DNA from: a virus
Direction: 5' to 3' (one strand)
Length of the DNA stretch: 23,906 bases
IMG/VR virus record: IMGVR_UViG_3300046836_000121
Coordinates: 1 to 23,906 of that record
Positions 10,608-23,906 of this stretch are shown one piece after another (the stretch's first letter is position 1; the number at the start of each line of letters is the position of its first letter). The notes under the pieces were generated by a model, which worked only from the letters and a program-made list of their open reading frames with translations, was not told where the DNA came from and did not search any database. The translations under genes and the position numbers were made by a program.

Positions 10608-10869
10608 CGCCTTAAGCCGGGGTTTCGGGACTCTCCCGATGTGGCTCGTTCAAACAGTCCTTGGGCTCCTGTTGTCTGGTGGCCTCGCGTGGTGCACATG
10701 GGCGTCTGTCTCCGCATGGAAACATGAGGTCCGGATCGGAGTGGTTGAGACGAAGGTCGATGACATCCATGGTGACATCGGTGAGATCAAGGAGATGCAG
10801 AAGGAGACCAACAGCAAACTCGATCGACTGATCGAAAGGAGTATCCGTGGCTCTCGACCCCCTCAGTAG
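10576..10869 (+). CDS. Membrane protein with TM plus coiled coil, lysis cassette (97 aa)
   Basis: The ATG at 10576 has a GGGAG SD and lies inside the 3' end of the 840-aa gene in another frame. One transmembrane segment spans residues about 21-48 (WLVQTVLGLLLSGGLAWCTW). A charged coiled-coil tail follows (VVETKVDDIHGDIGEIKEMQ). This topology resembles a short inner-membrane spanin (Rz-like) or an accessory holin of the XhlA type. The next gene is a holin and overlaps it by 23 nt, so a lysis function is likely. No outer-spanin lipoprotein was seen beside it, so the exact role is open. Confidence 0.55.
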   Translation: MAHQIQSPTSNALSRGFGTLPMWLVQTVLGLLLSGGLAWCTWASVSAWKHEVRIGVVETKVDDIHGDIGEIKEMQKETNSKLDRLIERSIRGSRPPQ

Positions 10870-11269
10870 TGTCCTAGACTTTGGCAAGGCCGTCATCGAG
10901 CGGTTCATCCCCGACCCGAAGGCGAAGGCCGAGGCGATCCAGCAGCTTGCACAGATGCAGCAGAGTGGGGACCTCGCGGCCATGGCGCAGCAGGCGAACA
11001 TCAACGCCATCGAAGCCGCGAACCCGAACCTCCTCATCGCTGGCTGGCGACCCGCTGTCGGCTGGGTCTGTGGTGCGGGCCTCGCAATGGCGTACGTCGC
11101 GAGCCCGGCAGTCGCACTCGTCATCTCCCTCGTCGGCGTGTTCCATGGCAAGCCGTTCGTCGCACCCGTGGTCGATCTGACCACTCTCTCACCGATCCTG
11201 ATGGCGATGCTTGGCATGGCCGGGCTCCGCACCTACGAGAAGGTGCAGGGCGCGCAGGGTAATCACTAG
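10847..11269 (+). CDS. Holin, GTA-type three-TM family (140 aa)
   Basis: The start is GTG at 10847, with GAAAGGAG six bases before it. An N-terminal charged helix (residues 1-60, LAQMQQSGDLAAMAQQANIN) leads into the diagnostic AGWRPAVGWVCGAGLAMAYV motif. Two further hydrophobic segments follow (VALVISLVGVF and the ILMAMLGMAGLR region). The GWRP-xxGW signature and size fit the three-TM holin family first described for gene-transfer-agent release. Such holins accumulate in the inner membrane and open it so that endolysin reaches the wall. The cognate endolysin is not beside it but on the other strand near 13.2 kb. Confidence 0.75.
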   Translation: MALDPLSSVLDFGKAVIERFIPDPKAKAEAIQQLAQMQQSGDLAAMAQQANINAIEAANPNLLIAGWRPAVGWVCGAGLAMAYVASPAVALVISLVGVFHGKPFVAPVVDLTTLSPILMAMLGMAGLRTYEKVQGAQGNH

Positions 11270-11278
11270 GAGGTTCAC

Positions 11279-11446
11279 ATGCAAGTCTTCCTGATGGCTG
11301 TTCAGTTGGTTGTGAGTGCGGCTGCGGCTTCACTCAACGGTCTGTTCTTCGGGGCAGGCTTCGCACTCTCGGCGGTGCTCGTGCAGCGTCGGATGGCGCA
11401 GAAGGATGCGGTGAAGCTGGGTGAGAACCCCGCGATCAAGCCGTAA
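11279..11446 (+). CDS. Small membrane peptide at end of lysis cassette (55 aa)
   Basis: The ATG at 11279 has AGGAGG six bases upstream, and the SD overlaps the holin stop region. The 55-aa product has a long hydrophobic stretch (FLMAVQLVVSAAAASLNGLF, then FGAGFALSAVLV), either one or two membrane passes. It ends in a basic, probably cytoplasmic tail (QRRMAQKDAVKLGENPAIKP). It is the last + strand gene, nine bases before the terminator stem region. A holin partner or antiholin is the natural guess from position, but the sequence alone does not settle it. Confidence 0.6.
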   Translation: MQVFLMAVQLVVSAAAASLNGLFFGAGFALSAVLVQRRMAQKDAVKLGENPAIKP

Positions 11447-11454
11447 CGTACAAA

Positions 11455-11501
11455 CGAAAAAGGCCCGACTCCCATCGCTGGGGGCCGGGCCTTTCGTTTT
11501 T
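11455..11501 (+). terminator. Rho-independent terminator between the convergent arms
   Basis: A 15-position stem (11459-11473 with 11480-11494) has one mismatch and one G-U pair, and its outer nine pairs (AAAGGCCCG) are perfect. It closes a six-base loop and is followed by five T at 11497-11501. It ends the + strand lysis operon. An A-run at 11457-11461 gives a U-run on the other strand, so it can also stop the leftward operon. Its place between convergent operons fits a bidirectional terminator. Confidence 0.85.
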
Positions 11502-11503
11502 CT

Positions 11504-11616
11504 GGCAGCGTTGCTATCCAGTTGACACTACACTGGGATGTCCTCTATCAGGGCACTCTCCATCAGCCCTAGTCAGGAGCAACCCAGTGGTGGGATTCGA
11601 ACCCACACCTCTGCTC
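11504..11616 (-). ncRNA. Candidate circularly permuted tRNA-like element
   Basis: Read on the - strand. First comes AGCAG then AGGT (anticodon-stem 3' side and a consensus variable loop). Next is a perfect T-arm (GTGGG-TTCGAAT-CCCAC, 11606-11590) and the acceptor 3' strand CACTGGG plus T (11589-11582). After 44 nt comes the exact complement CCCAGTG (11537-11531), TA, a tRNA-style D-loop (AACTGGATA) and CTGCC, which pairs 4 of 5 with AGCAG. The spacer folds into stacked stems (TCCT/AGGA and AGGGC/GCCCT), continuing the acceptor helix. The D-stem is weak in any register, U33 is missing, CCA is not encoded and no anticodon can be named. The order is 3' half before 5' half. A relic of a tRNA or of an attP site is the alternative. 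Confidence 0.4.
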
Positions 11617-11619
11617 GCT

Positions 11620-11886
11620 CTAGTACCTACCGAACTTGGGCTTCGTCGTTGGTAGGTCCATCGTCGGCCACATGAACATCAGGTCTGTGCCACCGTTGCC
11701 ACGGAGTAGAATCTCACCCATGGATGGTGTCTCAGGCTGTTGTGGCTTGGTTGGTACGCCCGGGGGGAGAATCTCGGGCTTCGGGGCAGCCGTGCCACCG
11801 GGTACCATTTGTCGCGCTTGAGTCGGGGGCTTGAGTTCGAAGGGCAGAGCACTCTCCCAATACCATTCGTACTTCGGCCACTTCAT
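11620..11886 (-). CDS. Hypothetical proline-rich protein (88 aa)
   Basis: This is the last gene of the leftward operon. I start it at the ATG at 11886, eight bases after the upstream stop. Its SD is poor (only GGGG next to the start). A GTG at 11952 would add 22 residues but overlaps the neighbour by 59 nt. The product has an aromatic N-terminus (MKWPKYEWYWESALPFELKP) and then a Pro/Gly-rich middle (PKPEILPPGVPTKPQQPETP). It has no membrane segment and no recognisable family. Confidence 0.45.
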   Translation of the reverse strand: MKWPKYEWYWESALPFELKPPTQARQMVPGGTAAPKPEILPPGVPTKPQQPETPSMGEILLRGNGGTDLMFMWPTMDLPTTKPKFGRY

Positions 11887-11893
11887 CCCCGAA

Positions 11894-12130
11894 TCAAAAG
11901 GGCTTGGTAACGAGCACCTCACAGCGGTCCGGGTCCGGCGCGGTGCTGCCACCCGACACAGCCGCCAGCATGATCGCCTTGTTGCTCGCCGCCTGAGCGT
12001 CGTCGGCCAGCACGAACTGCGGCTGCACGAGCACGGACTTCTTCGCGCCCGAGATGCGCTCGGCCTCGGTCGGGATGTAGAGGACAGCGATGAGGAAGAT
12101 ACTGCCGACAGACAGGGTGTTGATCGCCAT
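11894..12130 (-). CDS. Small protein with N-terminal hydrophobic segment (78 aa)
   Basis: The ATG at 12130 is preceded by AAGGAG seven bases upstream, located at the stop of the exonuclease gene. Residues 5-19 (TLSVGSIFLIAVLYI) form a hydrophobic segment without a clear cleavage site. A soluble Ala/Ser/Asp-rich region with one cysteine near the C-terminus follows. It could be a membrane-anchored accessory protein. There is no lipobox, so an outer spanin is not supported. Function unknown. Confidence 0.5.
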   Translation of the reverse strand: MAINTLSVGSIFLIAVLYIPTEAERISGAKKSVLVQPQFVLADDAQAASNKAIMLAAVSGGSTAPDPDRCEVLVTKPF

Positions 12131-12134
12131 GGTG

Positions 12135-12758
12135 TTACTCCTTCTCTTCGATGGGTGCTTCAGGAGCGTCCGGAGCCTGACGACTCGGGTCGCGGATCAT
12201 GTCCATCAGTCGCGTCAGCAACTGTGCGGTGGCACGTGCATCCTCCAGCGCGTTGTGAGCCTCACCCTTGCGGATGACGATCCCGAACCGCTGGCACAAG
12301 GCGTCCAGCCCTCGCGAGCGCAGGCCCGGTAACCGACCAGCAAGGTCGAGTGCGTAGGCCAGCGTCATCGTGTCCAACATCCTGTAGTGGAATACCTTGC
12401 TGTAGTCCTCACCCGCCAGTGCGAACAGCCGCTTGACGAAGCCCACGTCAAACGACGCGACATTGTGACCGGCAAGTCCCACAGGTTTGCGAATCCAGTT
12501 CTTCTGCAACCAGTTCTTCAGGTAGACCACCGCTTGGAGCGGATCATCTCCCACCCACGTTGTCAGGTCGATCCCGTTCACCTTGAGGGCGGCGGGTGTC
12601 GCGACGATGTTGGGCTCGGCGATCTGGATGTACAACTCATCCTCGATGTGCCCACCAACGCCGTACACGACCGCGCCGAGGGAGAGGATCGAATGCTGCG
12701 TCGGGTCTAGTCCACCCGTCTCGGTATCGATGACTAGCAGCTTTTCCTTGTTGTACAT
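12135..12758 (-). CDS. DnaQ-like DEDDh 3'-5' exonuclease (207 aa)
   Basis: All three exonuclease motifs are present. Exo I is VIDTETGG (D11, E13), Exo II is GHNVASFD (D104) and Exo III is HNALEDA (H168, D173), the DEDDh arrangement of DNA polymerase III epsilon and RNase T. The two-metal site removes nucleotides from 3' ends; proofreading in trans, primer/RNA trimming or host-DNA turnover are possible. The start ATG shares its A with the TGA of the upstream micro-ORF (TGATG). The C-terminal ~15 residues are acidic and Pro-rich. The family is clear, the substrate is not. The phage polymerase has its own proofreading domain, so this enzyme is additional. Confidence 0.85.
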   Translation of the reverse strand: MYNKEKLLVIDTETGGLDPTQHSILSLGAVVYGVGGHIEDELYIQIAEPNIVATPAALKVNGIDLTTWVGDDPLQAVVYLKNWLQKNWIRKPVGLAGHNVASFDVGFVKRLFALAGEDYSKVFHYRMLDTMTLAYALDLAGRLPGLRSRGLDALCQRFGIVIRKGEAHNALEDARATAQLLTRLMDMIRDPSRQAPDAPEAPIEEKE

Positions 12759-12853
12759 CAGCGGTGCTTCCAGACCATGACGGCGGCGTGGATCAGAGCG
12801 AGTGCGGCGGCGTAGCCTGCTCCGGCATTCTGCATCAACTGTCCCATGCTCAT
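12758..12853 (-). CDS. Micro-ORF: 31-aa single-TM peptide
   Basis: The ATG at 12853 overlaps the TGA of the 50-aa gene (ATGA), and its own TGA overlaps the exonuclease start (TGATG), so it is coupled on both sides. Residues about 9-27 (NAGAGYAAALALIHAAVMVW) form a hydrophobic helix, ending in KHR. A second ATG at 12847 is possible. It lies two genes after the endolysin, which makes a holin-like or lysis-modulating peptide conceivable, but this is inference only. Confidence 0.5.
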   Translation of the reverse strand: MSMGQLMQNAGAGYAAALALIHAAVMVWKHR

Positions 12854-13002
12854 CGCCAGAACCCGAACTCGTCGCGCTCGATCTGGAATGCCTGAATCAG
12901 GTTCTGCCACAGGGCCGCCTGCTCCTTCATCGTCTTCCGGCCACTGGTGTCTTCCCAGTACGCCGCATTGCACAACAGAACTGCCGCTTCACGTGGTGTC
13001 AT
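12850..13002 (-). CDS. Small hypothetical protein (50 aa)
   Basis: The ATG at 13002 overlaps the endolysin's TGA (ATGA), with an AGAGAGGA-like SD just upstream inside that gene. The product starts MTPREAAVLLCNAAYWEDTS and ends FQIERDEFGFWR. It is amphipathic and soluble-looking, with no known family. The double coupling to the endolysin and the micro-ORF supports it as a real gene despite its size. Confidence 0.5.
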   Translation of the reverse strand: MTPREAAVLLCNAAYWEDTSGRKTMKEQAALWQNLIQAFQIERDEFGFWR

Positions 13003-13457
13003 GACATCCTCTCTCCCGTCTCGATCATGTGTTGCAACCGGACGGCTCTCGGTCCCACTTGGTTCGCCCATACACTGTTCCGCATCTCACGACCCGCGTC
13101 GAGCCAGTCCTGCTCGTTGTCGAGGTGGCTCATCGCTCGGTTGATCGCCGCGTGCATCTTGGTGAACGCGCCGAACCGGTTGCCGAGATTGAAGGCCATG
13201 TTCACGAGCGCGTCCTGCCGAGTCAGGTCGATCAGCACCCAGTTCGGGAAGTACGAGCGCGCCCGACTCGTGGCCTGATCGATGTCGTACCGGAGCAGAG
13301 CCGCGATCTCGTCCTCCGTGATCGTGGACATCCGGGGAAGTGTCCCCGCTCCCAACTCATGTCCGACACCGATCGTCCAGATACCGACGCTGTCGCGATA
13401 TGCCGAGTAGCGGTAGCCCTCGTCCCGCATCAGGTCCCGTTCGAGATCAGTTGGCAT
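12999..13457 (-). CDS. Endolysin, T4-type lysozyme (GH24 muramidase) (152 aa)
   Basis: The N-terminal region matches T4 lysozyme: MRDEGYRYSAYRDSVGIWTI gives the catalytic triad E13, D22, T28 with the same spacing as T4 E11, D20, T26, followed by GVGH. The motif DALVNMAFNLG (about residues 83-93) is the second family signature. The enzyme cleaves the MurNAc-GlcNAc bond of peptidoglycan at lysis. No signal peptide or SAR segment is visible, so release should need the holin. The start overlaps the 3' end of the preceding gene by 11 nt. Its position in the replication operon, away from the holin, is unusual. Confidence 0.88.
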   Translation of the reverse strand: MPTDLERDLMRDEGYRYSAYRDSVGIWTIGVGHELGAGTLPRMSTITEDEIAALLRYDIDQATSRARSYFPNWVLIDLTRQDALVNMAFNLGNRFGAFTKMHAAINRAMSHLDNEQDWLDAGREMRNSVWANQVGPRAVRLQHMIETGERMS

Positions 13458-13659
13458 CGGGTTCGTTGATCGAGATGGAGACCCCGATCTCCGTGCCCTC
13501 GTTGCGCGGGACCTCCAGCCAACCCATCATCGACTGTCCGATGGCCTCTTCCAGCGTCTTCCCACTGAATGCGCGGAAGAACCTACCGTCCTTGATCAGG
13601 GCCGCTTCCCACGTCTCCCCGGTCTTCCTCGCTGCGTACGTCACTGACACTGTTGCCAT
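13447..13659 (-). CDS. Small hypothetical protein (70 aa)
   Basis: I chose the ATG at 13659 because GGAGG lies seven bases upstream; a longer form (from 13689) lacks this. The product (MATVSVTYAARKTGETWEAA ... ISINEPDAN) is predicted alpha/beta, with a KDGRFFRAFSGKTLEEAI stretch like small phage strand-helix proteins of the HicB-like or DUF type. No function can be named. It overlaps the preceding gene's 3' end by 77 nt and the endolysin by 11 nt. Confidence 0.5.
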   Translation of the reverse strand: MATVSVTYAARKTGETWEAALIKDGRFFRAFSGKTLEEAIGQSMMGWLEVPRNEGTEIGVSISINEPDAN

Positions 13660-14014
13660 TCTGTGCCTCCCTCGCGAGCTTGTCTGCATCGCTGATCAAC
13701 TTCAACACAACCGCATCGGCGGTCTTCGGTGCACCCTTCTTCCGCCACGGAGTATGCTGACCATGGTAGAAGATGTCAAGCAGTTCCTCGACCGGTCCGG
13801 GTTCGAGCCCCGCCTTGATCGCAAGCACACGCCCCGCGAGGGCCTTGATGAACTGATCCTCATGATCCTTCCACCAGACACGCGAGCGAAGGGTGGGAGG
13901 GGGAGCCATGGGAATCTGCACTCGCGAGGCTTTCCGGGTTACGTAACACGCGACGCAGCGGATACCCAGTTCACGAGGCCGCCGCTCGCACGCCTCACAC
14001 AGAAGGGAAGACAT
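13583..14014 (-). CDS. Zinc-finger-like protein (143 aa)
   Basis: The ATG at 14014 lies inside the end of the upstream gene (20-nt overlap). The N-terminus has two CxxC pairs (C6/C9 and C20/C23, CEACERRPRELGIRCVACYV), a likely single zinc site. The middle (RSRVWWKDHEDQFIKALAGR, LEPGPVEELLDIFYH) is helical. The last ~26 residues, which overlap the next gene, are Gly/Ser/Asp rich and look unstructured. It may be a nucleic-acid-binding accessory protein; no family was recognised. Confidence 0.5.
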   Translation of the reverse strand: MSSLLCEACERRPRELGIRCVACYVTRKASRVQIPMAPPPTLRSRVWWKDHEDQFIKALAGRVLAIKAGLEPGPVEELLDIFYHGQHTPWRKKGAPKTADAVVLKLISDADKLAREAQNGNSVSDVRSEEDRGDVGSGPDQGR

Positions 14015-14966
14015 CGCGCGGGTCCACCCCGGGGTTGGCCCTACGCCACTCGGCGATCATCTCCAGCGTCAGAGCGTAGCCCGCCGTGTCAGTGTTGTTG
14101 TCACGCTTCGGTGCGTTCCGGTGCCGGGACTGCTTCACGCAGATCATCGCCTGCCCGATGTCCTCGGCCTCCAGCCGTGCACCCGGCTTCAGCTTGTTGC
14201 GGAGGAGCGCCGTCAGCATGTCCGCGCTCCGCGTCATGTCGAAGATCGGATGGCCGTACGCGGCACCCCGGTCACCCAGCACGAGGCGGTGAGCCTCTTG
14301 TGCGACGCTCTCCACAATGGGTATGTGGTACTGGACTTTCTTATTCGTGATCCACATCGGCTTCGGCTCGAACAGGTCCAACTGCTCCAGTGTCTCCTTC
14401 AGATCACCACCCTCGCGTATCTGCTTCTGGACGATCTCCTCCTGAGTCGGCTGAGTCTGCCGCTCCTCGATCGCCTGCCGCACGTACATCACCGCGTCGA
14501 GGAGTTCCTGATAGAGGTCCACGAGTGGATCGCGCCCATTCTCAGTCTTCAACTCAGTGCCGTACTTGGCGACACCCTGCTGCCTGCGCTCCTGAATGTC
14601 CGCAAGCACGAGGTCCGTCACCGAGGTCTTGCCCGGCTTCGGGTCCTGCTGCGGTCTTGTCGTATCACCCATTGGTATGATCCTCTCTTCATGTTGGTCC
14701 CAGTAGTCGTTCCACCAGTCGAGCATCTCCTGCCGGGTCACAGGGGGAAGGCACGTGTGTCCGATCTCCCCCAACTTGAACACGTACCCGCACTTTGTAC
14801 ACGGAGGGAACGTGTGAGTGGGTACGTACTCCACTATCTTCGGTTTCGCGTTGAAGCTAACCTTCCGTACGTCACCCAGCCAGAACGTACCGAACATGCC
14901 CCCGAGAGGGGCGAAGTACTCGCTGGCCTGTGATGCTACTGACTTGATCTTCTTCCGGAGTCCCAT
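13995..14966 (-). CDS. Zinc-ribbon plus two MazG-like all-alpha domains (323 aa)
   Basis: The ATG at 14966 shares its A with the polymerase stop (TGATG). Residues 56-72 have a CxxC...HxC zinc-binding pattern. Residues about 115-170 (DIQERRQQGVAKYG ... LYQELLDAVMYV) resemble an all-alpha MazG/NTP-pyrophosphohydrolase-like domain. Residues about 215-310 (AYGHPIF, EAEDIGQAMICVKQSRH, KRDNNTDTAGYA) match the DUF6378-type phage domain of the same superfamily, with its acidic pair and the DN..D metal-binding pattern (D289, N290, D293). Such enzymes hydrolyse NTPs or dNTPs to NMPs and adjust nucleotide pools. An in-frame ATG at 14672 with an AGAGGA SD could give a shorter form. The substrate is unknown. 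Confidence 0.6.
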   Translation of the reverse strand: MGLRKKIKSVASQASEYFAPLGGMFGTFWLGDVRKVSFNAKPKIVEYVPTHTFPPCTKCGYVFKLGEIGHTCLPPVTRQEMLDWWNDYWDQHEERIIPMGDTTRPQQDPKPGKTSVTDLVLADIQERRQQGVAKYGTELKTENGRDPLVDLYQELLDAVMYVRQAIEERQTQPTQEEIVQKQIREGGDLKETLEQLDLFEPKPMWITNKKVQYHIPIVESVAQEAHRLVLGDRGAAYGHPIFDMTRSADMLTALLRNKLKPGARLEAEDIGQAMICVKQSRHRNAPKRDNNTDTAGYALTLEMIAEWRRANPGVDPRDVFPSV

Positions 14967-17467
14967 CAGGCCGCCAACTTCAGGGGCTCAACGTCTCCCC
15001 ACGACATGCCCGGTTCGGCCATTTCGACTTCGACGGGGATATAGAAGCCCGGCTTCACGATGTCGAACTTCCGCTCCATGATGCGCTTCATCTCTGCCGC
15101 TGCTGCCCTCGCGTGCTGGCTGGGGACTTGGATCAGGATCGAGTCATGCACGGTGGTCGTCATGCGCCCCCCGAACGTCCGCGCCATCTTCGCCACTTCG
15201 CTAAGGACGCACCAAAGGACATCCGCCACGGTGCTCTGAGGGATGAAATCCACAGCCGCTGGTGCGTTGCCAGCATGGAAGAAACGGATTCGGCCAAAGG
15301 CGTTCTTGATGTACTTCTTGGACTCGCACAGGGCGACGAGGTGCATCTTGTATGCGTGAGTCTTGAAGTAGTACTTGGCGATCTCCGCGAGGATTCGCTT
15401 ACACTCCTCCACTGGCACATACTGGTGCTCCTGTTCCAGAAGCATCTCGCTCACCTTCGCAGCACCAGCAAGGTACTGACCGGCGTACGTGATGTTCTTC
15501 GCGGTCTTGCGTGAGGTGTTGAACCGCACAGCGTTGCGGCTGTGCATGTCGCCAGACATCAGGTCGTCCATGAGACGGTCGTCGCCAGCCATCCATGCCA
15601 TCACGAACAGTTCCGCGCTCTTGTAGTCCGCTTGGATGAACGTCATGTCGGCGGTGTCCGGCACGTACAGGCCGCGCACCTTCTTCGGTTGGTTCTGGAT
15701 GTTCGGCCCATAGGTGGCGAGCCGCCCGGTGCACGTCGTGCCCTTCGCGGTCTCCAGCCCGAGGCCGGTCGGCTTCTTCTCGTGCTCGTCGTCCTTCGAC
15801 ACCGGCATGTACGACGGGTGAACCCAGCACTCCGCGTTCATCGCGGCGGGCTGGACGTAGGTGCCGATCAGTTTGCCACACGATCGCAACTGGAGTACGA
15901 GATCGAAGAACCGCTCGGTGCACCGGGAGTCCTCGGTCCACGGACCGGGATGGTGCTTGCGGGCGTAGTCACTCGCCACGTAGTGCTGGAGCCGCACGAG
16001 GGCGAGTTCGTCTGTCGTCGCCCCGGCTTCCTTGGACTTGGTGCGCTGGACCGGCAGGCCCCACTCACCGTACATCAGGTCCTGTAACTGCTGTGTCGAG
16101 CCGGGATTGGTGCCGGGGAAGTGACGCCCCCATATCTGCTCCAGCCGGTGCTGCTTGCGCTCCAGCCGCCCGACGAACTTCTCGGCATACGGTCTGTCCA
16201 CACGGATGCCGCCACGGTTCAGGGTCGTCAGTTCGCGGATCGTGGCGCACACGCCGGGTCCCGGGTGGTCGCCCTCGCCCATGAACAGGTTCCAGCAACC
16301 AAGGTTCTTCATGACTGTGATGATGCTGATCGCCAGCCATGCGGTGACGAAGGCGTCCTTCGCCGAGTAGAAGCGCGGGTCGGCCTTGCTCAGTTCCGAC
16401 CACATGGAACCCTTCTGGCCCTTCCACGGCTTCAGGTCGTGGTAGATGGTGATCGCACGGGCCAAGGACTTGTGAAGGTCGGGCTGGAGAACGACAGCAC
16501 CGAACATAGTATCCACCAGTCGGTGGTCAAGTACGGCGTCGGAGATTCGTACTCCGTTCGCGATGAGGCGGGGAATGTCAAATGGGCTGTTGTGTACAGC
16601 ATAGTACCTCCCCGGGAGATCGAACAGCCACTGGACGAAGTCCCTCGTCTCGGTCGTCCACTCCAGCGAAGCGGTGCACTTGCCATCACTGAAGGACACG
16701 AGGTCGATGACCTCGTTGCCCACGCCGTGTGTCTCGATGTCGATGGCGATCACGTCGCCCCACACGTGCTCGTGCAGGTCGTTGACCGAGTGGAGTGTCA
16801 GGTTGCGGCCGAACCGCTTGACCGTGAACTCGGTGTAGAAGCCATCGCGCTCCAGCCGGTCGTCCAGCATATACAGGCCGCCGTCGATCGCCCGCTTGCA
16901 CCGCTTCACGTCTTCCTTGAACGCGGGGCGCACCGCGAACTGTTCCATGCGGATGTGGTCGAGGCCGTAGCTGGGGATCACGACGCCAGTGAAGTCGGTG
17001 CCGAGAAGACCGCCGAGGAGTGTGGTCTTCTGCCAGCCGAACTTCGGGTCACCTTTCAGGTGCCCGTTGCCCTTGTTCTTGTACTCGCCAACCTTCACCC
17101 ACGACTCGGTCGTGATCGAGTGGAAGAACTCCTTGTCGAGCACGTAACCGCGTGCGTCGAGGATCGTCTGCGTGATACCGGTGAGTGGGTACAGCGTGTC
17201 GCCCTGTAGTGCGAGCACGACCTTCGGGCGGGACTCTGCGATCTCCTGAGAGAAGCGCGGCCACGCAGCCCGGACCTGAGCCTTCGACGGGCGGCCACCA
17301 CTATTCGCGGGGGGCTCGTCGATCAGGAAGACGATGCGAGTGTCGAGCTTCGAGATACCACACTCGTCTTGGACAACCTTCCAGAACCAAGCCTCCATGC
17401 CCTCGCTGGGCTCGGCGATCATGGTGACCAGAAGTGGTGCGTCTACTCTACCACGTGCATTGCTCAC
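14966..17467 (-). CDS. DNA polymerase, family A, with UDG-like N-terminal and 3'-5' exonuclease domains (833 aa)
   Basis: It uses a GTG start at 17467 with AGGAGG five bases upstream. Residues about 10-175 resemble a family 4-type uracil-DNA glycosylase fold (FLIDEPPANSGGRP, ESRPKVVLALQG, VVIPSY). The proofreading exonuclease follows: DIETHG (D243, E245), HNSPFD, and YSAKD as Exo III. Polymerase motif A is DYKSAEL (D614). Motif B is R653-x3-K657-x3-Y661-x3-Y665. Motif C is VHDS (H774, D775). The catalytic residues are intact, so it should be the replicative enzyme. Tyr at the O-helix position equivalent to Pol I F762 and T7 Y526 is a T7-like feature. There is no 5'-3' exonuclease domain. The downstream gene is coupled by TGATG. 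Confidence 0.93.
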   Translation of the reverse strand: MSNARGRVDAPLLVTMIAEPSEGMEAWFWKVVQDECGISKLDTRIVFLIDEPPANSGGRPSKAQVRAAWPRFSQEIAESRPKVVLALQGDTLYPLTGITQTILDARGYVLDKEFFHSITTESWVKVGEYKNKGNGHLKGDPKFGWQKTTLLGGLLGTDFTGVVIPSYGLDHIRMEQFAVRPAFKEDVKRCKRAIDGGLYMLDDRLERDGFYTEFTVKRFGRNLTLHSVNDLHEHVWGDVIAIDIETHGVGNEVIDLVSFSDGKCTASLEWTTETRDFVQWLFDLPGRYYAVHNSPFDIPRLIANGVRISDAVLDHRLVDTMFGAVVLQPDLHKSLARAITIYHDLKPWKGQKGSMWSELSKADPRFYSAKDAFVTAWLAISIITVMKNLGCWNLFMGEGDHPGPGVCATIRELTTLNRGGIRVDRPYAEKFVGRLERKQHRLEQIWGRHFPGTNPGSTQQLQDLMYGEWGLPVQRTKSKEAGATTDELALVRLQHYVASDYARKHHPGPWTEDSRCTERFFDLVLQLRSCGKLIGTYVQPAAMNAECWVHPSYMPVSKDDEHEKKPTGLGLETAKGTTCTGRLATYGPNIQNQPKKVRGLYVPDTADMTFIQADYKSAELFVMAWMAGDDRLMDDLMSGDMHSRNAVRFNTSRKTAKNITYAGQYLAGAAKVSEMLLEQEHQYVPVEECKRILAEIAKYYFKTHAYKMHLVALCESKKYIKNAFGRIRFFHAGNAPAAVDFIPQSTVADVLWCVLSEVAKMARTFGGRMTTTVHDSILIQVPSQHARAAAAEMKRIMERKFDIVKPGFYIPVEVEMAEPGMSWGDVEPLKLAA

Positions 17468-17489
17468 TGGGTCCTCCTGTGGGGTAGGC

Positions 17490-17554
17490 GGGGCGACTCA
17501 ACGGGATCGAGTCCATTCTGAGATGTATCGAGGGTTCCATCGAAGAGTCGCCCC
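17490..17554 (-). promoter_or_regulatory. Hairpin leader upstream of DNA polymerase
   Basis: A perfect 10-bp inverted repeat (GGGGCGACTC at 17490-17499, its complement at 17545-17554) encloses 45 nt. It begins two bases after the HNH stop and ends 11 bases before the polymerase SD at 17473-17478. No T-run follows, so it is not a standard terminator. A translational operator or an mRNA-processing site is the likelier reading. Confidence 0.5.
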
Positions 17555-17556
17555 TT

Positions 17557-18087
17557 TCACGGGGCCGGGGTCACGGGCGTACCTACCACTGTGTGCATTG
17601 CTACGAGCTTGGCATGTCGCTTCGACATACGGTCGCTCCTGAACAGTCGGCCACCCACGCCGGGCTCTCTGTTCAACCACCAGAGGAACCGCAGCGGCAG
17701 GATGAACCTCCACATATTTCTGATCCAGACCAGTACTTCTGCGTCGGTGAAGACCGCATCCCCACGCTTGGCGTTGCACCCCGAACACAGCGGTCGGTAG
17801 TTCCCGTCGTTGACGTGGGGCGTGATGTGATCTAGCTGAAGACCACGGCCGGTCTTGCGGCTCCCAAGGAAGCGGAACCATGGACCGTCGCGGTTGTACT
17901 TCCGCAGGATGTAGTTCGGTATCCCACAGATTGAGCACCGTGTCTCCTCAGCCATGAGGATCGGTGCCCACTTCCGTGCTTCCTCGTCACTCAGGCCGTG
18001 GTGTTCTCGCAGCCTCTTGATCTTCCCCACCAGCGACGAGTTCCGCGCCAGCATCCGCAGTCGTTCCGTCTCCCTCGTTCGAGCCAT
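17557..18087 (-). CDS. HNH endonuclease (176 aa)
   Basis: The HNH core is at residues 85-110: LDHITPHVNDGNYRPLC, then SGCNAKRGD, with the general base H87 and N96 in place. Two CxxC pairs (C51/C54 and C101/C104) form the structural zinc site. The enzyme makes metal-dependent nicks or breaks in DNA. A free-standing homing endonuclease or a packaging/replication nicking enzyme are both possible. The ATG at 18087 has a good SD (GGGAGAAGG) but gives a 101-nt overlap with the upstream gene. An ATG at 17955 would remove the overlap but has no SD. The C-terminal ~50 residues are hydrophobic, Trp-rich and then basic. Confidence 0.75.
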   Translation of the reverse strand: MARTRETERLRMLARNSSLVGKIKRLREHHGLSDEEARKWAPILMAEETRCSICGIPNYILRKYNRDGPWFRFLGSRKTGRGLQLDHITPHVNDGNYRPLCSGCNAKRGDAVFTDAEVLVWIRNMWRFILPLRFLWWLNREPGVGGRLFRSDRMSKRHAKLVAMHTVVGTPVTPAP

Positions 18088-18745
18088 TCGCCTTCTCCCT
18101 TACCGACGCGCCCATCTGGTCGGCCAGTTCCTGCGGAACGCCGAACGCGATCAGAGCCTCAGCGAGTTGCTTGACGACGTGGTCGAGGGCGAGGTCCACA
18201 GCATACCGCTTCATGTCGCGGACATCAGCTTCCGGAATCTTGAATGCCAACCCATCGATGTACAGTACGTTGGTGGAAAAGTCGAACAGTTGGACCTGAG
18301 TGAAGTCCGGCAGCTTGACGACAGGTTGTGGGATGAACATCCCGGCCGCAGGATGAGAAGCGAGGAACTCCCGCGCCGTTTGCCGATCGGGTGTTCCCTG
18401 ACGCCGGACCTCCTGATCGAGAACCGTGTTCAACTCTGGCCGACCAACTCCACCCGCTGCGGTCTGTGCCTCTGCGAGGGAGCCGTACTGGTTGTCCTCA
18501 CCCTCTTCCTTGGGAAGAAGACCAAGCTCTCTCGCCCTCGCGTCCCGGGCCGCAGCCTCTTCTGCGCTCAGGGGCGCTGGATTGTTCATAGCCGCCGACC
18601 GCACCGAAGTCCCCGAACCAACCTGAACAGGTTGGTCCGTGAGACTCCGGCCCGCTGCCGGTAGCCCAGCCGCCGCGTTCACCCGCTTCAGCATGTCTGC
18701 TGCTTCGGTGGCCGCGTTGCGCTTCTGAAACGCTGGACTAGGCAT
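17987..18745 (-). CDS. Hypothetical protein of the replication operon (252 aa)
   Basis: The ATG at 18745 is preceded by AGGAGG. Residues 1-130 are Ala/Gln/Glu rich and low in predicted structure. Residues about 138-220 look folded (IPQPVVKLPDFTQVQLFDFS, VLYIDGLAFKIP, VDLALDHVVKQLAEALIAFG). The C-terminal ~35 residues are Gly/Ala/Glu rich, disordered, and overlap the HNH gene. Its position directly downstream of the ATPase and ssDNA-binding-type genes suggests a replication or recombination accessory role. No family was recognised. Confidence 0.5.
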   Translation of the reverse strand: MPSPAFQKRNAATEAADMLKRVNAAAGLPAAGRSLTDQPVQVGSGTSVRSAAMNNPAPLSAEEAAARDARARELGLLPKEEGEDNQYGSLAEAQTAAGGVGRPELNTVLDQEVRRQGTPDRQTAREFLASHPAAGMFIPQPVVKLPDFTQVQLFDFSTNVLYIDGLAFKIPEADVRDMKRYAVDLALDHVVKQLAEALIAFGVPQELADQMGASVREKANGSNEGDGTTADAGAELVAGGEDQEAARTPRPE

Positions 18746-18753
18746 CAGCCCTC

Positions 18754-19386
18754 CTAAGCCGCAGGCGCGTCGGGCAGGTAGCTCTCGACGTTGGTGCGGC
18801 GATCGTGCTTCCGCTTCTCACTCTTGTTCGGCGCATCCTTCAGGTTGACGAGGACGGACTTGCCGGTGAGCGGGGAGTCGGTACCGTTGAGCGGCCCCTT
18901 CGGCGGGAACACGCTGTTGAGCAGGCTGGCCTTGAGGCCCTTGCTCTTGTCACCGTCCTTGACCCGGGGCGTGAAGCCCGTGGCCGCGAAGAGCGACGTG
19001 ATGGCGGAGACCGCGAGGTTGTGCGGGAACGCGGACTTCATGGCCGCATCCTCTGCCGTACCCTGACCGAGAAGCAGGCGGATGTTGAGCGTGTGACGAG
19101 CCCACGCGCGCTTCTCCTCGTTCGGATAACCCGCGCGGACCTTCAACTGCACGACGGCGTTGATCTTGTTGGTGTCCTCACCGCCGCCCTCACGCCACGC
19201 AGCCTCGATGACCGCACCTTCCATCCACTCGTTGTACTCGTCGAAGGGAGCCTTCTTCGAGACGGTGTGCTTCGCATCAGCGGGGACGACGAACGGCGCA
19301 CCCTGATCGAGAGCCGCAGCCGCAGCCTTCTGCGCGCCATCGCTGATGTCCACGAAATCAGGGGTCGGGATGTTCTGGTCAGCCAT
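18754..19386 (-). CDS. Probable ssDNA-binding or recombination partner protein (210 aa)
   Basis: I start at the ATG at 19386, which has AAGGAG upstream and overlaps the ATPase stop by eight bases. Longer in-frame starts lie deep inside the ATPase gene and are rejected. The protein has a central alternating beta pattern (GAVIEAAWREGG, INAVVQLKVRAG, HTLNIRLLLGQG) compatible with an OB-type fold, and a C-terminus rich in Lys (DAPNKSEKRKHDRRT). In many phages the gene next to a Sak4/RecA-like ATPase encodes an SSB-like protein. The role is inferred from that neighbourhood, not from a clear motif. Confidence 0.5.
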   Translation of the reverse strand: MADQNIPTPDFVDISDGAQKAAAAALDQGAPFVVPADAKHTVSKKAPFDEYNEWMEGAVIEAAWREGGGEDTNKINAVVQLKVRAGYPNEEKRAWARHTLNIRLLLGQGTAEDAAMKSAFPHNLAVSAITSLFAATGFTPRVKDGDKSKGLKASLLNSVFPPKGPLNGTDSPLTGKSVLVNLKDAPNKSEKRKHDRRTNVESYLPDAPAA

Positions 19387-20206
19387 TGGTGATCTCCTTG
19401 TTGACTTCCTTCTCGTACAGCGTCCAGTAGCTACTCGGGTTGCGATCGAGGAATACCTTCGCCAGCTTGTTCGTCCCCTCCTCGTCGGAGGTCCTGATCT
19501 TGCTGATGAACTTACCGTCATTCTCCGTGATAGCCACGACCACGTCAGACGGGGCGTCGTCGCCCGGGACGAGGATGGTTTCACGGATCAGACGAATGAC
19601 GGTGTTAAACTGCGCCGGGATGTACTCAGTCATCGCGCGGCCGGGGTGAGCCGGGCCGCCGACACTGTGCACGCCCTCGACGATCTTGACATCCTCGTGC
19701 ATGACGAAGATGATGTGCATGTTGCGCTGGTTCTTGAACAGCATGTCCAAGTACCCACGCGACAGAGACTCGATGGCCTGATAGTCACCCCGGTTCGGGA
19801 TGGCCTGTCCGCCCTTCTTCGGGTCGCCGATGACGTAGTGCTTCTCACGATCCATGGTCTGTGCGTTGGCCGCGTAGCTGATCGTGTCGAGGGCAACCTT
19901 GGTGTAGGTGTCCACGACGAGCACGCCGATCCCGGGATCGACCGCCTTCCAGTCCTGCATACAGAACTGCATGAAGTTCACGGTCGGGTCGTCACCCTCG
20001 GGAATGACCGGGATGATCCGGCCACGCTTGGCGAGGCCCGTTGAGCCCAACGATTCCGAGTTGGTGTCGGCCGCATAGTAGGCGATCTTGCCCCACGACT
20101 CGGGTACGGACAGCGCGAGGCGGCTCTTGCCAATGCCCGCGCGGCCGTAGATGATGATGCGCTCCTTGGTCGCCGGAGCGGCGTCCTTCAGAATCCGCAA
20201 ACCCAT
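19379..20206 (-). CDS. RecA-fold ATPase, Sak4/AAA_24-like (275 aa)
   Basis: The Walker A motif is GRAGIGKS (residues 21-28) and Walker B is GVLVVDT with D99. The architecture of a single RecA fold of about 275 aa, with HIIFVMHE as the following sensor strand, matches the phage AAA_24/Sak4 group of single-strand annealing and recombination ATPases. The ATG at 20206 has a GAAGGAG SD. A promoter-like sequence and two dyads lie just upstream. It probably loads on ssDNA and supports recombination-dependent replication with its 3' neighbour. A phage helicase or KaiC-like variant cannot be excluded. Confidence 0.8.
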   Translation of the reverse strand: MGLRILKDAAPATKERIIIYGRAGIGKSRLALSVPESWGKIAYYAADTNSESLGSTGLAKRGRIIPVIPEGDDPTVNFMQFCMQDWKAVDPGIGVLVVDTYTKVALDTISYAANAQTMDREKHYVIGDPKKGGQAIPNRGDYQAIESLSRGYLDMLFKNQRNMHIIFVMHEDVKIVEGVHSVGGPAHPGRAMTEYIPAQFNTVIRLIRETILVPGDDAPSDVVVAITENDGKFISKIRTSDEEGTNKLAKVFLDRNPSSYWTLYEKEVNKEITNG

Positions 20207-20218
20207 TGTCTCTCCTTC

Positions 20219-20239
20219 AGTTAGAGGTGGACCTTAACT
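20219..20239 (-). promoter_or_regulatory. Dyad over -10 and +1, operator-like
   Basis: An inverted repeat (AGTTA/TAACT with inner AGGT/ACCT around a GG centre and one unpaired base) overlaps the -10 element and the predicted transcription start. A loop of two bases is too short for a good RNA hairpin, so a protein-binding operator is more likely. Inference from position. Confidence 0.35.
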
Positions 20240-20265
20240 CTACACGTTTTGCGATCGCGTGTCAA
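20237..20265 (-). promoter_or_regulatory. Sigma70-like promoter for the ATPase-polymerase operon
   Basis: On the - strand a perfect TTGACA (20265-20260) is followed after exactly 17 bases by TAGAGT (20242-20237; 4 of 6 to TATAAT). The start point would be near 20230, about 24 bases before the ATPase ATG. The -35 overlaps the primase stop codon. A second dyad (ACACG-N11-CGTGT, 20242-20262) occupies the spacer. Confidence 0.6.
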
Positions 20266-21287
20266 GCCTTTCCGTACGACGTTTCGATGACGTGGTCGAG
20301 TTCCCTCTCGGTCATCTCTTGGTCCGGGCCGCAGATGCCGTTGGCGTAGGCGATCGCCGCCCTCGCCTGCGCGCGCTCGATCCCGCACTCCTTCAGCTTG
20401 GTGGCCGTGTGCCACGCCGTCTCGTGACGGCCCGGAGCCTCACGACCCTCGGTCAGGTAGACCTGAGCCTTCTTCGTCAGGTTGGTGAACACCTTCTGCC
20501 ATGGCGTGCCGGGTGGCACTTCACCGGGCTCAGGCTCCGCGTACACACTGTCAGGTGTCCCAGTTGTCAGGAGAGCCGCATACCCACTGAACCGCTCCCG
20601 CGAGGGCTCAATGATCTGAGCCATCCGCCCGGTCTTGATGTTCACGGTCCCCGGACACCGCATGACACGTGGTAGGTCTGAGGTGCACGAGTCGAGTCGG
20701 CATCCATACGTCGTGCCGATCTTGTCACTCACCCGCTTGAGCCAGTGACCCATGGCTTTGCGTGCGGTCTTCCGGGTGCAGATGCCGAAGGGTGGCTCGA
20801 CCGGAACACCCTTCATTGAATCATACGAGACTCCAATGTACACCCCTTCCATCTGTCGGTCATCGAGCACGGTGTCGTCCATCCTGATCCATGCCTGACG
20901 ACCACGGCCACTGTCGATGATGAGCGGACGGCGCTGGCGGAAGTTCCGGCCAGACCACTCACCCAACCAGAGGAGTGCATCCTCCAAAGCTTCCTCGGGA
21001 AGGAAGTCTTCCTCTACAGGGTCCATGTCAAGCAGTAGGTACGACCAGTGCGTGACATCAGCGGCAGCATGGCGCATCCCCACCGTGCTCATCGTGGGGT
21101 TCGGTGCGACATACACATTCATGCCCTTCGCTTCCGCACTCTGTGCGAACCGTTCCATCTCCGCTGGGTTCCGTGCGAAGTCTCCCATCCTCCGGCTGTC
21201 CGACCGGGCGAACATCCTCACTACGTGTTGGGGGCTCGGGTGTGGGAGTAGGTCCCACAGTTCCGTCAGTGCTGGCCGTACGATCAT
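20262..21287 (-). CDS. Primase-polymerase, AEP superfamily (341 aa)
   Basis: The ATG at 21287 has a GGAGA SD. Archaeo-eukaryotic primase motifs are visible in order. Motif I is LLLDMDP with D87 and D89. Motif II is IIDSGRGRQAW (residues 123-133), where the usual His is Gln. Motif III is RLDSCTSDLPRVMRCPGTVN (D199, R210, N216). Residues about 285-341 resemble a PriCT helical tail. The enzyme would make primers for the family A polymerase; no helicase domain is fused. The first 230 nt overlap another predicted gene on the same strand. Later starts such as M25 would reduce but not remove this overlap. Confidence 0.8.
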   Translation of the reverse strand: MIVRPALTELWDLLPHPSPQHVVRMFARSDSRRMGDFARNPAEMERFAQSAEAKGMNVYVAPNPTMSTVGMRHAAADVTHWSYLLLDMDPVEEDFLPEEALEDALLWLGEWSGRNFRQRRPLIIDSGRGRQAWIRMDDTVLDDRQMEGVYIGVSYDSMKGVPVEPPFGICTRKTARKAMGHWLKRVSDKIGTTYGCRLDSCTSDLPRVMRCPGTVNIKTGRMAQIIEPSRERFSGYAALLTTGTPDSVYAEPEPGEVPPGTPWQKVFTNLTKKAQVYLTEGREAPGRHETAWHTATKLKECGIERAQARAAIAYANGICGPDQEMTERELDHVIETSYGKA

Positions 21288-21528
21288 CGAGTCTCCATGT
21301 GTGGTAGAGGTGGTTGGATGGGACCTTCGGGATGATACACCCTTCGGGCCATGGCTTGTTGACTGGGGCGATGAACGTGATCCAGCACATGATGTCGCAC
21401 TTCGGATTGTCGTAGCGGTGCCCTTCGGGGCACAGCATCCGGTTCTTGATCGCCCGCTGCCAACGCTGGTAGACTGCGGGCCGTGTGACCCGCAGCCACC
21501 AGTGGAAGAGTCTAGCGGTGAAGCGCAC
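21058..21528 (-). CDS. Hypothetical protein overlapping primase (156 aa)
   Basis: It uses a GTG at 21528 with GGGGAG four bases upstream, overlapping the stop of the 76-aa gene by 17 nt. It fills the interval between that gene and the primase, which is otherwise unexplained. The N-terminal part (VRFTARLFHWWLRVTRPAVY, then MLCPEGHRYDNPKCDIMCW) looks protein-like, with a possible zinc site C-x3-H-x6-C-x3-C. The last ~75 residues lie in the primase-overlapping region and are Gly/Thr/Pro/Glu rich, as expected of a shifted frame. The true product could be only its first half functionally. No family was recognised. Confidence 0.5.
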   Translation of the reverse strand: MRFTARLFHWWLRVTRPAVYQRWQRAIKNRMLCPEGHRYDNPKCDIMCWITFIAPVNKPWPEGCIIPKVPSNHLYHTWRLDDRTASTDGTVGPTPTPEPPTRSEDVRPVGQPEDGRLRTEPSGDGTVRTECGSEGHECVCRTEPHDEHGGDAPCCR

Positions 21529-21742
21529 CGGGCTCCCCAGCCACTCGGCGAAGCTCCCGCGTGATGGCCTTGCGCGCCCCACTGCGGGACGAGAACAGCC
21601 GGATCGCACCATCGACCGTACGGAGATAGTTGAAGTACGAGCCGGTGTGGACCTCGACCTCGAACTTACCAATATCCCACATCGCACTCACGACCTTGTA
21701 CGTCGTCGTAACATCCACCGTCTGCGTGCTCGTCATGTTCAT
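21512..21742 (-). CDS. Small hypothetical protein (76 aa)
   Basis: The ATG at 21742 overlaps the nuclease TGA (ATGA). The product begins MNMTSTQTVDVTTTYKVVSA and has alternating strands (FEVEVHTGSYFNYLRTVDGA), then a basic helix (SGARKAITRELRRV). It is a compact alpha/beta protein without a known family, with no signal peptide. A nucleic-acid-related accessory role would fit its basic tail, but this is not shown. Confidence 0.5.
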   Translation of the reverse strand: MNMTSTQTVDVTTTYKVVSAMWDIGKFEVEVHTGSYFNYLRTVDGAIRLFSSRSGARKAITRELRRVAGEPGALHR

Positions 21743-22671
21743 TCTTGCTCACTCCCTTCCGGAGTCTCGTACGTGTCTTCCCGCTTCTTGAAGTAACGCG
21801 GGTCACCCAGTTCGTACTCACCCGTGAGGACACGGAAGTACTCGTCTGGGCTGTTACCATATGCCCCACCGTTCATGTTCTCGTTCGGGGCGGGCACTTC
21901 CCCGATCGATAGCCATCTGTGGCGACAGGAACGCATCTCCCTCGCGTGGTGCCTGATGCTGTCCATGACGTGCTCGTGCAACGGGCTGTCGAGATCGATG
22001 TTGACCGGAACCTGTTGGAACATCTCCTCGTATCGCTTGCACTCACCCAGCGGATTCGCCTTGGTCACCTTGGTCCGGTACTTCAGCTTCCGGATCAGAT
22101 CGAACTGCGTCCCGCCGTATCCCTTGAACTGTCCGGCGTACTTCACCATCAGTCCTTCCGCGTACATATGCTCGTGGTAGCTGCGCTTGGCGAGGTCGGT
22201 GAAGACGCCGAAGTGCGTGCCCGACGCGAGGGCTTTGTGCTGAACATGCCAAAGAAGTCCGTGGCGTACAGCCACACGATCAGGGCGACCACGCCCAACG
22301 AGACCGTCTCCCAAGTCGATTTCAAACGGCACCTCCGCTTCGATGCACTCGATCTCGAAGGGATAGGTGTCGTGCCACTGAACGAGCGCCTCCGTGAGAT
22401 CGTCCAACTGCTTGAGAACCTTGAGGCCAACAGCGATGTCCACCTCGTCGTTGGTCGTCGCCATCAGGGAGAGCCAGTTGCCACGGTGGAGATTAATGCA
22501 CTCCAGCATGTCACACTGGCCGCCACTGTACGTCTCGAAGATGCGGTGGATCAACTTGCCGAAACTGAGGGGCTGGGCCTCGTGCAGCGGCACCCAATCC
22601 ATCACCCACTTGGCCCACCAGCGGAAGCGGCACCGCTGGAAGTCCTGCATCTCGGAGATGTTGAAGACCAT
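21739..22671 (-). CDS. PD-(D/E)XK nuclease, RecB/Cas4-like (310 aa)
   Basis: I start at ATG 22671, one base after the ligase stop; a longer form would lie inside the ligase gene. The N-terminus (MVFNISEMQDFQRCRFRWWA, GKLIHRIFE with H42) is the usual opening of RecB-type nucleases. The core is VPFEID with E113, then GRGRPDRVAV with D131, then WHVQHKAL with K146; here the second acidic residue of the motif is Gln144. Such enzymes process DNA ends for recombination or degrade host DNA. The family call is good. Activity needs testing because of the Gln. No iron-sulfur cluster cysteines are visible at the C-terminus. Confidence 0.7.
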   Translation of the reverse strand: MVFNISEMQDFQRCRFRWWAKWVMDWVPLHEAQPLSFGKLIHRIFETYSGGQCDMLECINLHRGNWLSLMATTNDEVDIAVGLKVLKQLDDLTEALVQWHDTYPFEIECIEAEVPFEIDLGDGLVGRGRPDRVAVRHGLLWHVQHKALASGTHFGVFTDLAKRSYHEHMYAEGLMVKYAGQFKGYGGTQFDLIRKLKYRTKVTKANPLGECKRYEEMFQQVPVNIDLDSPLHEHVMDSIRHHAREMRSCRHRWLSIGEVPAPNENMNGGAYGNSPDEYFRVLTGEYELGDPRYFKKREDTYETPEGSEQE

Positions 22672-22672
22672 G

Positions 22673-23452
22673 TTACCGTCCCACGTTTGCACCGACCACC
22701 TCGAACTTGTGTGCCGCATCGTTGTCCACCGTGGCCTTGAACAGACTACCCGTGGCGATGTGGAAGATGACGATGCCCTCGGCGGGTTGGCCCGGGGCAG
22801 CGACAGAGCCCTCGTTCTTCAGGAACTCCAACTCGAACTCCGGCATGTACCGACGCCCGGGAGGCGCGGGTTTGTCGAGGAACTTCACCGTCCCGTCCTC
22901 GTTGAACTTGTCGCTCTCGTCGATGTACCCCGCAACAGACCCGACCGGCATGATCCACGGACCGTGCCAGAGAACCGGTACAGAGTAGATCGCGACGCCG
23001 AGTTTCCGCGCATCGGCGAGTGCCGTCTCACCATCGGGCGACGCCCACCGAGACGTGTTGAACAGACTGAACCGCTTGTGGTCGAGACCGTATCCGCGCT
23101 GGATACCCTTGCCCCACCACTCACCGAAGTGCGTGCCCTCACCGAGGGTCGAGATCAGGACATCCGCGTTGGCATCGACCCACGCACGGAAGCCCATGTT
23201 GTCCTTCTGGGGTGTGAGCATCCGGGTCCGTGACTGGGCGAAGACTTCGAACATCCCACCCTCGGCACGACGGATGACGACCGCAGCGTTGGTGCCATCG
23301 ATCTTCTCGGTGATGACGATGTCACGGTTCATGCGGCCGATCTTCGGCCATGCTTTGAACTCGGGAGCCATCGCGAGGAACCGCTCCTCTGCCTCCTTGG
23401 CAAGTTGCTTCTCCAGATGAAACTTCTCTAGTTGCTCAGGCGTTTTCTGCAT
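22673..23452 (-). CDS. RNA ligase, Rnl2-like nucleotidyltransferase (259 aa)
   Basis: Nucleotidyltransferase motif I is TEKIDGTNA, with catalytic K50 forming the AMP adduct. Motif III is GEWWGKGIQRGYG (residues 110-122). Motif IV is EGIVIFH (225-231) and motif V includes LFKATV (K239). The arrangement fits the Rnl2/RNA_ligase family that seals 3'-OH and 5'-phosphate RNA ends. It is shorter than T4 Rnl2 (334 aa) and lacks room for a full C-terminal domain. The ATG at 23452 has GGAGGG five bases upstream; a GTG at 23458 is less well placed. It overlaps the upstream gene by 17 nt. DNA ligase activity cannot be excluded. Confidence 0.75.
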   Translation of the reverse strand: MQKTPEQLEKFHLEKQLAKEAEERFLAMAPEFKAWPKIGRMNRDIVITEKIDGTNAAVVIRRAEGGMFEVFAQSRTRMLTPQKDNMGFRAWVDANADVLISTLGEGTHFGEWWGKGIQRGYGLDHKRFSLFNTSRWASPDGETALADARKLGVAIYSVPVLWHGPWIMPVGSVAGYIDESDKFNEDGTVKFLDKPAPPGRRYMPEFELEFLKNEGSVAAPGQPAEGIVIFHIATGSLFKATVDNDAAHKFEVVGANVGR

Positions 23453-23906
23453 CGGCACCCTCCACAGCGGTCTCCAGCGTCACGGCCTGAGCCGCCGCCT
23501 CGTCCGCGATCTTGTCCAGCACAGCCTGCTTCTCCGGGTTCGCCTGACCGGCCCACGACAGAGCCGCATCCTCAGACGACTGCAACTCCTCATCGGTCAC
23601 CGGCTCCGTGTGCGTCTCGGTCTCCAGCAACGTCGGGTGCGGGAGTCGGAACATCACCTTCCGCATGAGCACGACAACCATCAGGCCGCTGCCGTTGGGC
23701 AGAAGCGCCGACAACTGCCACTGCTCCGGACCGTTCACCTTCTCGGTGATATAGTCACCAGCCGTGCTAGTCGAAACGGACTTGGTGTTGAACTGAATCT
23801 TCGGGGCGATGAACCCGATCACACCCTCTTCCACCTCGGCAAGCTGTGACTTCGGGTAGTAGTGCGCGAGGTTCTGTTCGAGATCATACTTGCTCCAGTC
23901 CTCGGT
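23436..23906 (-). CDS. Hypothetical protein, 5' end outside window (at least 156 aa)
   Basis: The frame is open to the right edge, so the start lies beyond it; the GTG at 23834 is probably internal. The visible part has a folded-looking beta section (VIGFIAPKIQFNTKSVST, LSALLPNGSGLMVVVLM), then an acidic Ala/Glu-rich tail (ETETHTEPVTDEEL ... EGADAENA). It is the most upstream gene of the leftward operon seen here and overlaps the RNA ligase by 17 nt. No family was recognised. Confidence 0.55.
   Translation of the reverse strand, partial: TEDWSKYDLEQNLAHYYPKSQLAEVEEGVIGFIAPKIQFNTKSVSTSTAGDYITEKVNGPEQWQLSALLPNGSGLMVVVLMRKVMFRLPHPTLLETETHTEPVTDEELQSSEDAALSWAGQANPEKQAVLDKIADEAAAQAVTLETAVEGADAENA

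Follow-up and report, generated by a model that had tools for sequence, protein, structure and literature searches.

A probable host-polymerase promoter at the primase/ATPase boundary of an uncultured phage, one of a sister pair

The gap between a primase-like gene and a RecA-like ATPase gene in the leftward gene block of an uncultured phage carries a promoter of the host housekeeping type, one of a sister pair, at which the host RNA polymerase probably re-starts transcription of the replication module, and the dyads around it would play no part in this. The promoter lies on the minus strand of the window, the whole stretch of 23,906 nucleotides that was analysed (IMG/VR record IMGVR_UViG_3300046836_000121). 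As described in the original prediction, TTGACA and TAGAGT are separated by 17 bp on the minus strand (20265-20237), and the intergenic gap was confirmed, spanning 20207-20261 from the primase-like gene (20262-21287) to the ATPase gene (19379-20206).

Elements of the promoter and the genes that it would serve

The elements of the promoter and the surrounding genes are as follows.

20260-20265, minus strand: -35 element TTGACA, read from the sequence; the strict form is also present in five other lineages
20243-20259, minus strand: 17-bp spacer CGCGATCGCAAAACGTG, read from the sequence
20237-20242, minus strand: -10 element TAGAGT; close relatives have TAGGGT or TACGAT
20228-20232, minus strand: GTCCA block over the predicted start site, from the site alignment, with the start placed by spacing
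20212-20217, minus strand: Shine-Dalgarno sequence AAGGAG, five bases ahead of the ATG, read from the sequence
20262-21287, minus strand: primase-like gene upstream, whose 3' end holds the -35 element; PHROG DNA polymerase/primase, E 9e-09, no Pfam match
19379-20206, minus strand: RecA-like ATPase behind the promoter; Pfam AAA_24, PHROG Sak4-like
18754-19386, minus strand: next gene of the module, a conserved protein starting MADQN, with no Pfam or PHROG family match
17987-18745, minus strand: following gene of the module, a conserved protein with no Pfam or PHROG family match
17557-18087, minus strand: HNH-endonuclease-like gene; PHROG matches, no Pfam match
14966-17467, minus strand: DNA polymerase of family A, from family searches; end of the module

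Read along the minus strand, the order of elements is GGC-TTGACA-CGCGATCGCAAAACGTG-TAGAGT-TAAGGTCCACCTCTAACTGAAGGAGAGACA-ATG, in which the ATPase ATG starts at 20206 and the end of the -10 element lies 30 bases from the gene. The stop codon of the primase-like gene, TGA (20264-20262), sits inside the -35 box. The 3' half of the spacer, AAAACGTG, is the part held in common with the sister promoter, and the 5' half is mostly variable. A primase-like protein, a PD-(D/E)XK nuclease and an RNA ligase are encoded upstream of the promoter, the primase-like assignment being drawn from a single PHROG match.

A TTGACA-like -35, a TAnnnT -10 and a spacing of 16-18 bp characterize promoters read by a housekeeping sigma factor, and TTGACA-17-TAGAGT has all three. 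The hexamers and spacer also fit the housekeeping promoters of Streptomyces lividans, which have -35 TTGACn or nTGACn, -10 TAnnnT and a mean spacer of 16.5-17.4 (PMC8079986), although this is an actinobacterial consensus and may not be that of the host. T7-type RNA polymerase (PF00940) was absent from all 10 contigs searched, as was sigma-70 region 2, these contigs being fragments or of uncertain completeness. The T7-type polymerase was likewise absent from five further contigs (four relatives and a near-duplicate) in a search that recovered the T7 positive control, such that the phage-encoded single-subunit RNA polymerase that a promoter of that type would need was found in none of the 15 contigs, the further ones being likewise fragments or of uncertain completeness. 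Since neither a T7-type RNA polymerase nor a sigma-70 region 2 was found, the host polymerase with its housekeeping sigma factor is the likely reader, and would probably recognise the internal promoter early in infection. RNA from promoters of this class starts 5-9 bases past the -10; here the transcript would begin at approximately 20228-20232, and its leader of about 22-26 bases would include a good ribosome-binding site. Since the scan lists no intrinsic terminator near 20207-20300, read-through from upstream probably continues, and the genes from the Sak4-like ATPase through to the DNA polymerase would receive a fresh transcript on top of it.

Hints of the host come from sequence matches of the replication genes. 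The DNA polymerase has weak matches of less than 60% identity in 1,199 phage records, of which the 25 listed show 22-24% identity and are mostly actinobacteria phages by name. A nucleotide search with positions 15000-23906 returned 35 mycobacteriophage records, and in each of the 20 listed the match is to the same 91-base stretch, at 82%, which is annotated as RNA ligase and its neighbour. Together these matches hint at an actinobacterial host; the lysis genes, however, belong to Phage_lysozyme and GTA_holin_3TM, which look more like those of phages of Gram-negative bacteria. Two very large rightward genes occupy 3687-8075 (1462 aa, with DUF7178) and 8085-10607 (840 aa, with no Pfam or PHROG match). 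The ATPase, the primase and the 840-aa protein had no match at E 1e-5 among 50,697 phage records, and six pattern matches to the ATPase in bacterial genomes were discarded, none being a relative.

Conservation of the site at the end of the primase gene

Related loci were gathered by scanning viral contigs with the polymerase (11 loci) and with alignments of the ATPase and of the primase (13 loci each, many contigs overlapping). Once the near-duplicate contigs G005, G007 and G015 are set aside, 12 lineages hold the primase end, including this phage (G001); G002 and L013 (G006) start only at the polymerase, so that the primase junction is missing from them, and were not counted. Scans covered 20 kb each of G015 and G016, all but about 3.2 kb of G008, all but about 1.6 kb of G010, and G002 up to its last 0.9 kb. 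A site was scored by position if TTGAC started within 41 positions around the primase stop, with the background taken from the same 505 kb.

TTGACN-17-TANNNT lies at the primase stop in six of the 12 lineages (G001, G003, G004, G011, G017 and G008), where 0.0034 would be expected. Relaxing the -10 to NANNNT adds G009 and G010 (8/12; expected 0.028), and allowing spacers of 16-18 adds G013 (9/12; expected 0.054). Primase identities across the lineages range from 46 to 100%, the 88% of G004 covering only its last 57 residues, and because the lineages share ancestry, six of 12 is a measure of conservation and not the outcome of twelve independent trials. G014 has TCGACA-17-TACAAT at the primase stop, with an imperfect -35. 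G012 and G016 have no promoter in the primase gap, and their next start codon lies nearly on the primase stop.

The promoter stays at the primase stop at five loci where the next gene is not the ATPase (L009 and L014-L017). An HNH-like gene, absent from the same place in the window, lies between promoter and ATPase in L009; it encodes 87 residues (6716-6979) and matches Pfam HNH at E 0.021, below the curated cut-off. A small gene takes this place in L014, L015, L016 and L017; tblastn identifies it as a homologue of window 21512-21742 in L014 and L017, and in L015 and L016 the match was made by reading only. In the window this small gene lies ahead of the primase, in L014 and L017 directly after the promoter; apparently the gene has changed position and the promoter has not. 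The primase stop falls inside the -35 box in G001, G003, G004, G017, G008 and G013, and is the TAG of the -10 in G011; with the stop codon in one box or the other depending on the lineage, the promoter has been kept while the coding frame around it changes. An element retained in relatives amid changing surroundings (6/12 strict, 9/12 loose) makes the site in the primase/ATPase gap, judged by this comparison, a real promoter.

Sequence scans taken by themselves are less distinctive. TTGACA-N16..18-TANNNT matches the 23.9-kb record once, and the reversed pattern used as control has no match there; a looser scan of 4000-23906 found six promoter-like sites against 2.8 +/- 1.7 in shuffles, the site in the primase/ATPase gap being one of three that score 10/12. 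The frequency of the loose pattern is close to that of its control: it has 85 matches against 59 for the reversed pattern summed over 10 contigs, and in G001 and G009 it is no commoner than the control. In addition, 23 early promoters predicted from sequence in the Kayvirus vB_SauM-515A1 had no visible effect on transcription (PMC7698491), so a good promoter match need not be active. What counts here is the position of the match and not the common loose pattern itself. Conservation of both position and sequence in relatives makes it extremely improbable that the promoter-like sequence is an inactive chance match, and backs the strong internal promoter of host housekeeping type that had been proposed for the primase/ATPase boundary.

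A sister promoter and a shared asymmetric block

A longer contig of this phage (G001), whose proteins are 100% identical over the genes compared, carries a second promoter 12.1 kb upstream (L018 4251-4279), reading TTGACG-ACGCGCCGCGAAACGTG-TAGAGT-TGAAGTCCAACC. In G003 and G011 the sister promoters lie 13.4 and 13.5 kb upstream, where the orthologous gene ends. In L018 the preceding gene (3911-4276) has as its stop codon the TAG of the -10, and in G011 the stop lies in the -35 box. Between the two promoters are genes for a phosphatase-like protein, an AAA_25 helicase-like protein, a ligase, a nuclease and the primase. The first gene after the sister promoter, L018 4304-4696, has a PHROG protease match (E 3.5e-50) and is an odd opener for such a transcription unit. 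The similar promoter about 12 kb earlier would open the upstream half of this gene block, and because the two are so alike, both halves of the block should respond alike and would fire together. The proposal that the polymerase module is switched separately from the genes upstream accordingly finds no support, as the close resemblance of the sister promoter over the extended sequence points to joint firing. For an uncultured phage lineage, this provides a testable transcription map of two units with matched promoters placed on the stop codons of the preceding genes.

Host-type promoters internal to long phage operons are already known, for example from two reports. In Cluster O mycobacteriophages (Corndog), one long leftward gene block contains several strongly predicted SigA-like promoters, including one that lies in coding sequence, and the authors suggest separate operons (PMC4351075). 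The virulent Kayvirus vB_SauM-515A1 has strong early sigma-70 promoters with a 17-bp spacer, several per transcription unit, one of which precedes a gene for a protein acting on the host replicase (PMC7698491). The promoter described here resembles those of Corndog in being of host type and internal to a long gene block (PMC4351075), and those of the Kayvirus in combining a strong host-type sequence and a 17-bp spacer with a place inside one transcription unit (PMC7698491). In contrast to Corndog, each genome here has just two such promoters (PMC4351075), and whereas the 58 early promoters of the Kayvirus came from RNA sequencing extended by a matrix, the two here are predicted from sequence (PMC7698491).

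The similarity between the paired promoters extends beyond the hexamers. With a leave-one-genome-out matrix, eight distinct sites score 12 to 49 bits, the G004 site, also present in the near-duplicate contig G005, being counted once; among 18 sequences, the sole other match above 8 bits is a borderline 8.3 in G013. The eight aligned sites do not differ in TTGAC, in the T-A and last T of the -10, or in the bases at -2 (G), -1 (T) and +2 (C). Six or seven of them also agree on A at -19 and at -18, on G-T at -15/-14, and on +1 (C) and +3 (A). The conserved block, made up of the spacer's 3' half, the -10 and the GTCCA that covers the start site, lacks symmetry. The promoter-like sites at the primase stop of the more distant G008, G009, G010, G013 and G014 do not have GTCCA, so the block belongs to the nearer lineages. 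An exact scan of viral contigs found four copies of the promoter pattern, a pair in G001 and a pair in G003; this is no independent test, since the pattern was built from those four sites. A wider pattern found 11 stretches, six in relatives and five in contigs with no detected homology, a yield inseparable from chance, and the pattern had no match in bacterial genomes.

Such a block might be the binding site of a phage regulator that governs both promoters as a two-site regulon, a reading that we regard as rather unlikely. Identity between the two sites of a genome outside the hexamers is 18/29 in G001, 21/29 in G003 and 18/29 in G011, GTNC over the start site is invariant in all eight sites, and the distant relatives with promoter-like sites but no GTCCA suggest that the polymerase does not need this sequence everywhere. 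On the other hand, a genome has only two sites, no HTH_3 match was found in 10 contigs and no regulator was recognised among the early proteins scanned, and shared ancestry or the preference of the host polymerase would account for the block equally well. The true within-genome pairing gives the highest identity sum of six possible pairings, but with three genomes this is an outcome of 1 in 6; concerted change of both promoters within a genome was therefore set aside as a conclusion, the genomes being too few. L5-type mycobacteriophages have more than 20 asymmetric 13-bp operators and stoperators and a known immunity repressor (PMC9283540). Their sites resemble the present one in being asymmetric, conserved, overlapping promoters and near gene ends, but the phages here differ in having two sites, always in a promoter, and no integrase or HTH_3 in 10 contigs (PMC9283540). 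Stoperators would be many, spread and mostly outside promoters, whereas G001, G003 and G011 have two promoter-linked sites each.

The specific form of this reading, in which the pair is a two-site regulon operated by the host polymerase together with a phage factor on AAnCGTnTAGRGTTGnRGTCCA (approximately -19 to +3), is one that we consider distinctly unlikely. If it were true, the helicase/ligase/primase half and the ATPase/polymerase half would be turned on in step by a two-site regulon that works with no T7-type polymerase, sigma factor or dyad-binding repressor, and any phage protein found to bind this block would be a previously undescribed early regulator.

Dyads and RNA structure

The original prediction also placed two operator-like dyads around the promoter, which are present as follows.

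20242-20262, minus strand: dyad 1, ACACG-N11-CGTGT, with the palindrome GCGATCGC inside; found only in this phage and judged incidental
20219-20242, minus strand: dyad 2, TAGAG-N11-CTCTA (20242-20222) with the overlapping AGTTA-N11-TAACT (20239-20219); judged incidental

One of them does overlap the -10 and +1, but neither their number nor their length is clearly beyond that of shuffled sequence. All three registers have 5-bp arms; three such dyads in a 64-base stretch are reached in 7% of 2000 dinucleotide shuffles, and an arm of five or more occurs in 44%. The palindrome GCGATCGC has four copies in the window. The dyads were taken to be repressor operators that switch the polymerase module separately, and this is improbable. 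In its favour, besides the overlap, dyad 2 keeps four of five pairs in the nearest ATPase-side sites, in both registers in G003b and in the TAGAG register in G004b, and two relatives carry dyads of their own. Elsewhere dyad 2 keeps 0-3 pairs, with 0/5 in both registers in G003a and G017b, and dyad 1 keeps just one to three of five pairs at the 10 other sites (counts were made at 11 sites, this promoter included). Of the five pairs in each of the three registers, this phage's own sister promoter keeps two, two and one, and it has no 5-bp dyad; a search for the same dyads elsewhere found no second copy of the arm pairs in the window, G001 or G002. Furthermore, dyad 2 has its 3' arm within AACC/AACT-AAGGAG, a pre-Shine-Dalgarno leader that is also found before genes with no such promoter. 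An HTH_3 repressor domain was absent from 10 contigs in a search of that family alone. Corndog differs in this respect: a 17-bp dyad whose 7-bp arms are invariant occurs more than 30 times in its genome, whereas here no dyad is repeated (PMC4351075).

The dyads of the relatives are those of G004 and G009. The G004/G005 site (L012 3907-3960) has its own 7-bp dyad, ACAACCC-N15-GGGTTGT, reaching from the spacer to the -10 flank, and G004 also has a 5-bp dyad, GGTTG/CAACC, where dyad 2 sits; G009 has a 5-bp dyad in the spacer. Because these differ in sequence, and the long one also in place, they do not mark a shared operator, although in G004 itself an operator role may still apply. On this comparison, the dyads around the promoter in the primase/ATPase gap are probably chance and not control switches, and a tempting operator reading that is private to one phage is thereby removed.

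Dyad 2 could instead work in RNA, as a leader hairpin ahead of the ATPase ribosome-binding site. Read-through RNA would be able to form a short stem there, and in G004b the sequences GGTTG and CAACC can pair at the corresponding position. The 5' arm, however, lies upstream of the predicted start, and folding is no more stable than in shuffles (z +0.61 when the folded leader includes both arms, -0.51 when it begins at the predicted start and +0.74 when flanks are added), such that the hairpin was rejected as highly improbable. A host-read promoter whose function owes nothing to the dyads is thus the preferred reading.

An Rfam search of the window and three loci found tRNAs only, in L014 and L016. 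Three tRNA genes lie at L014 11420-11987 and two at L016 15157-15568, behind the polymerase region of these distant relatives. The 141 bases between the small gene and the ATPase in L016 (6690-6830) contain no tRNA and no Rfam family at the gathering score. Folding at the same place in L014 (2794-2925) is unremarkable (z -0.8), and the L016 stretch folds far beyond its shuffles (z -4.2).
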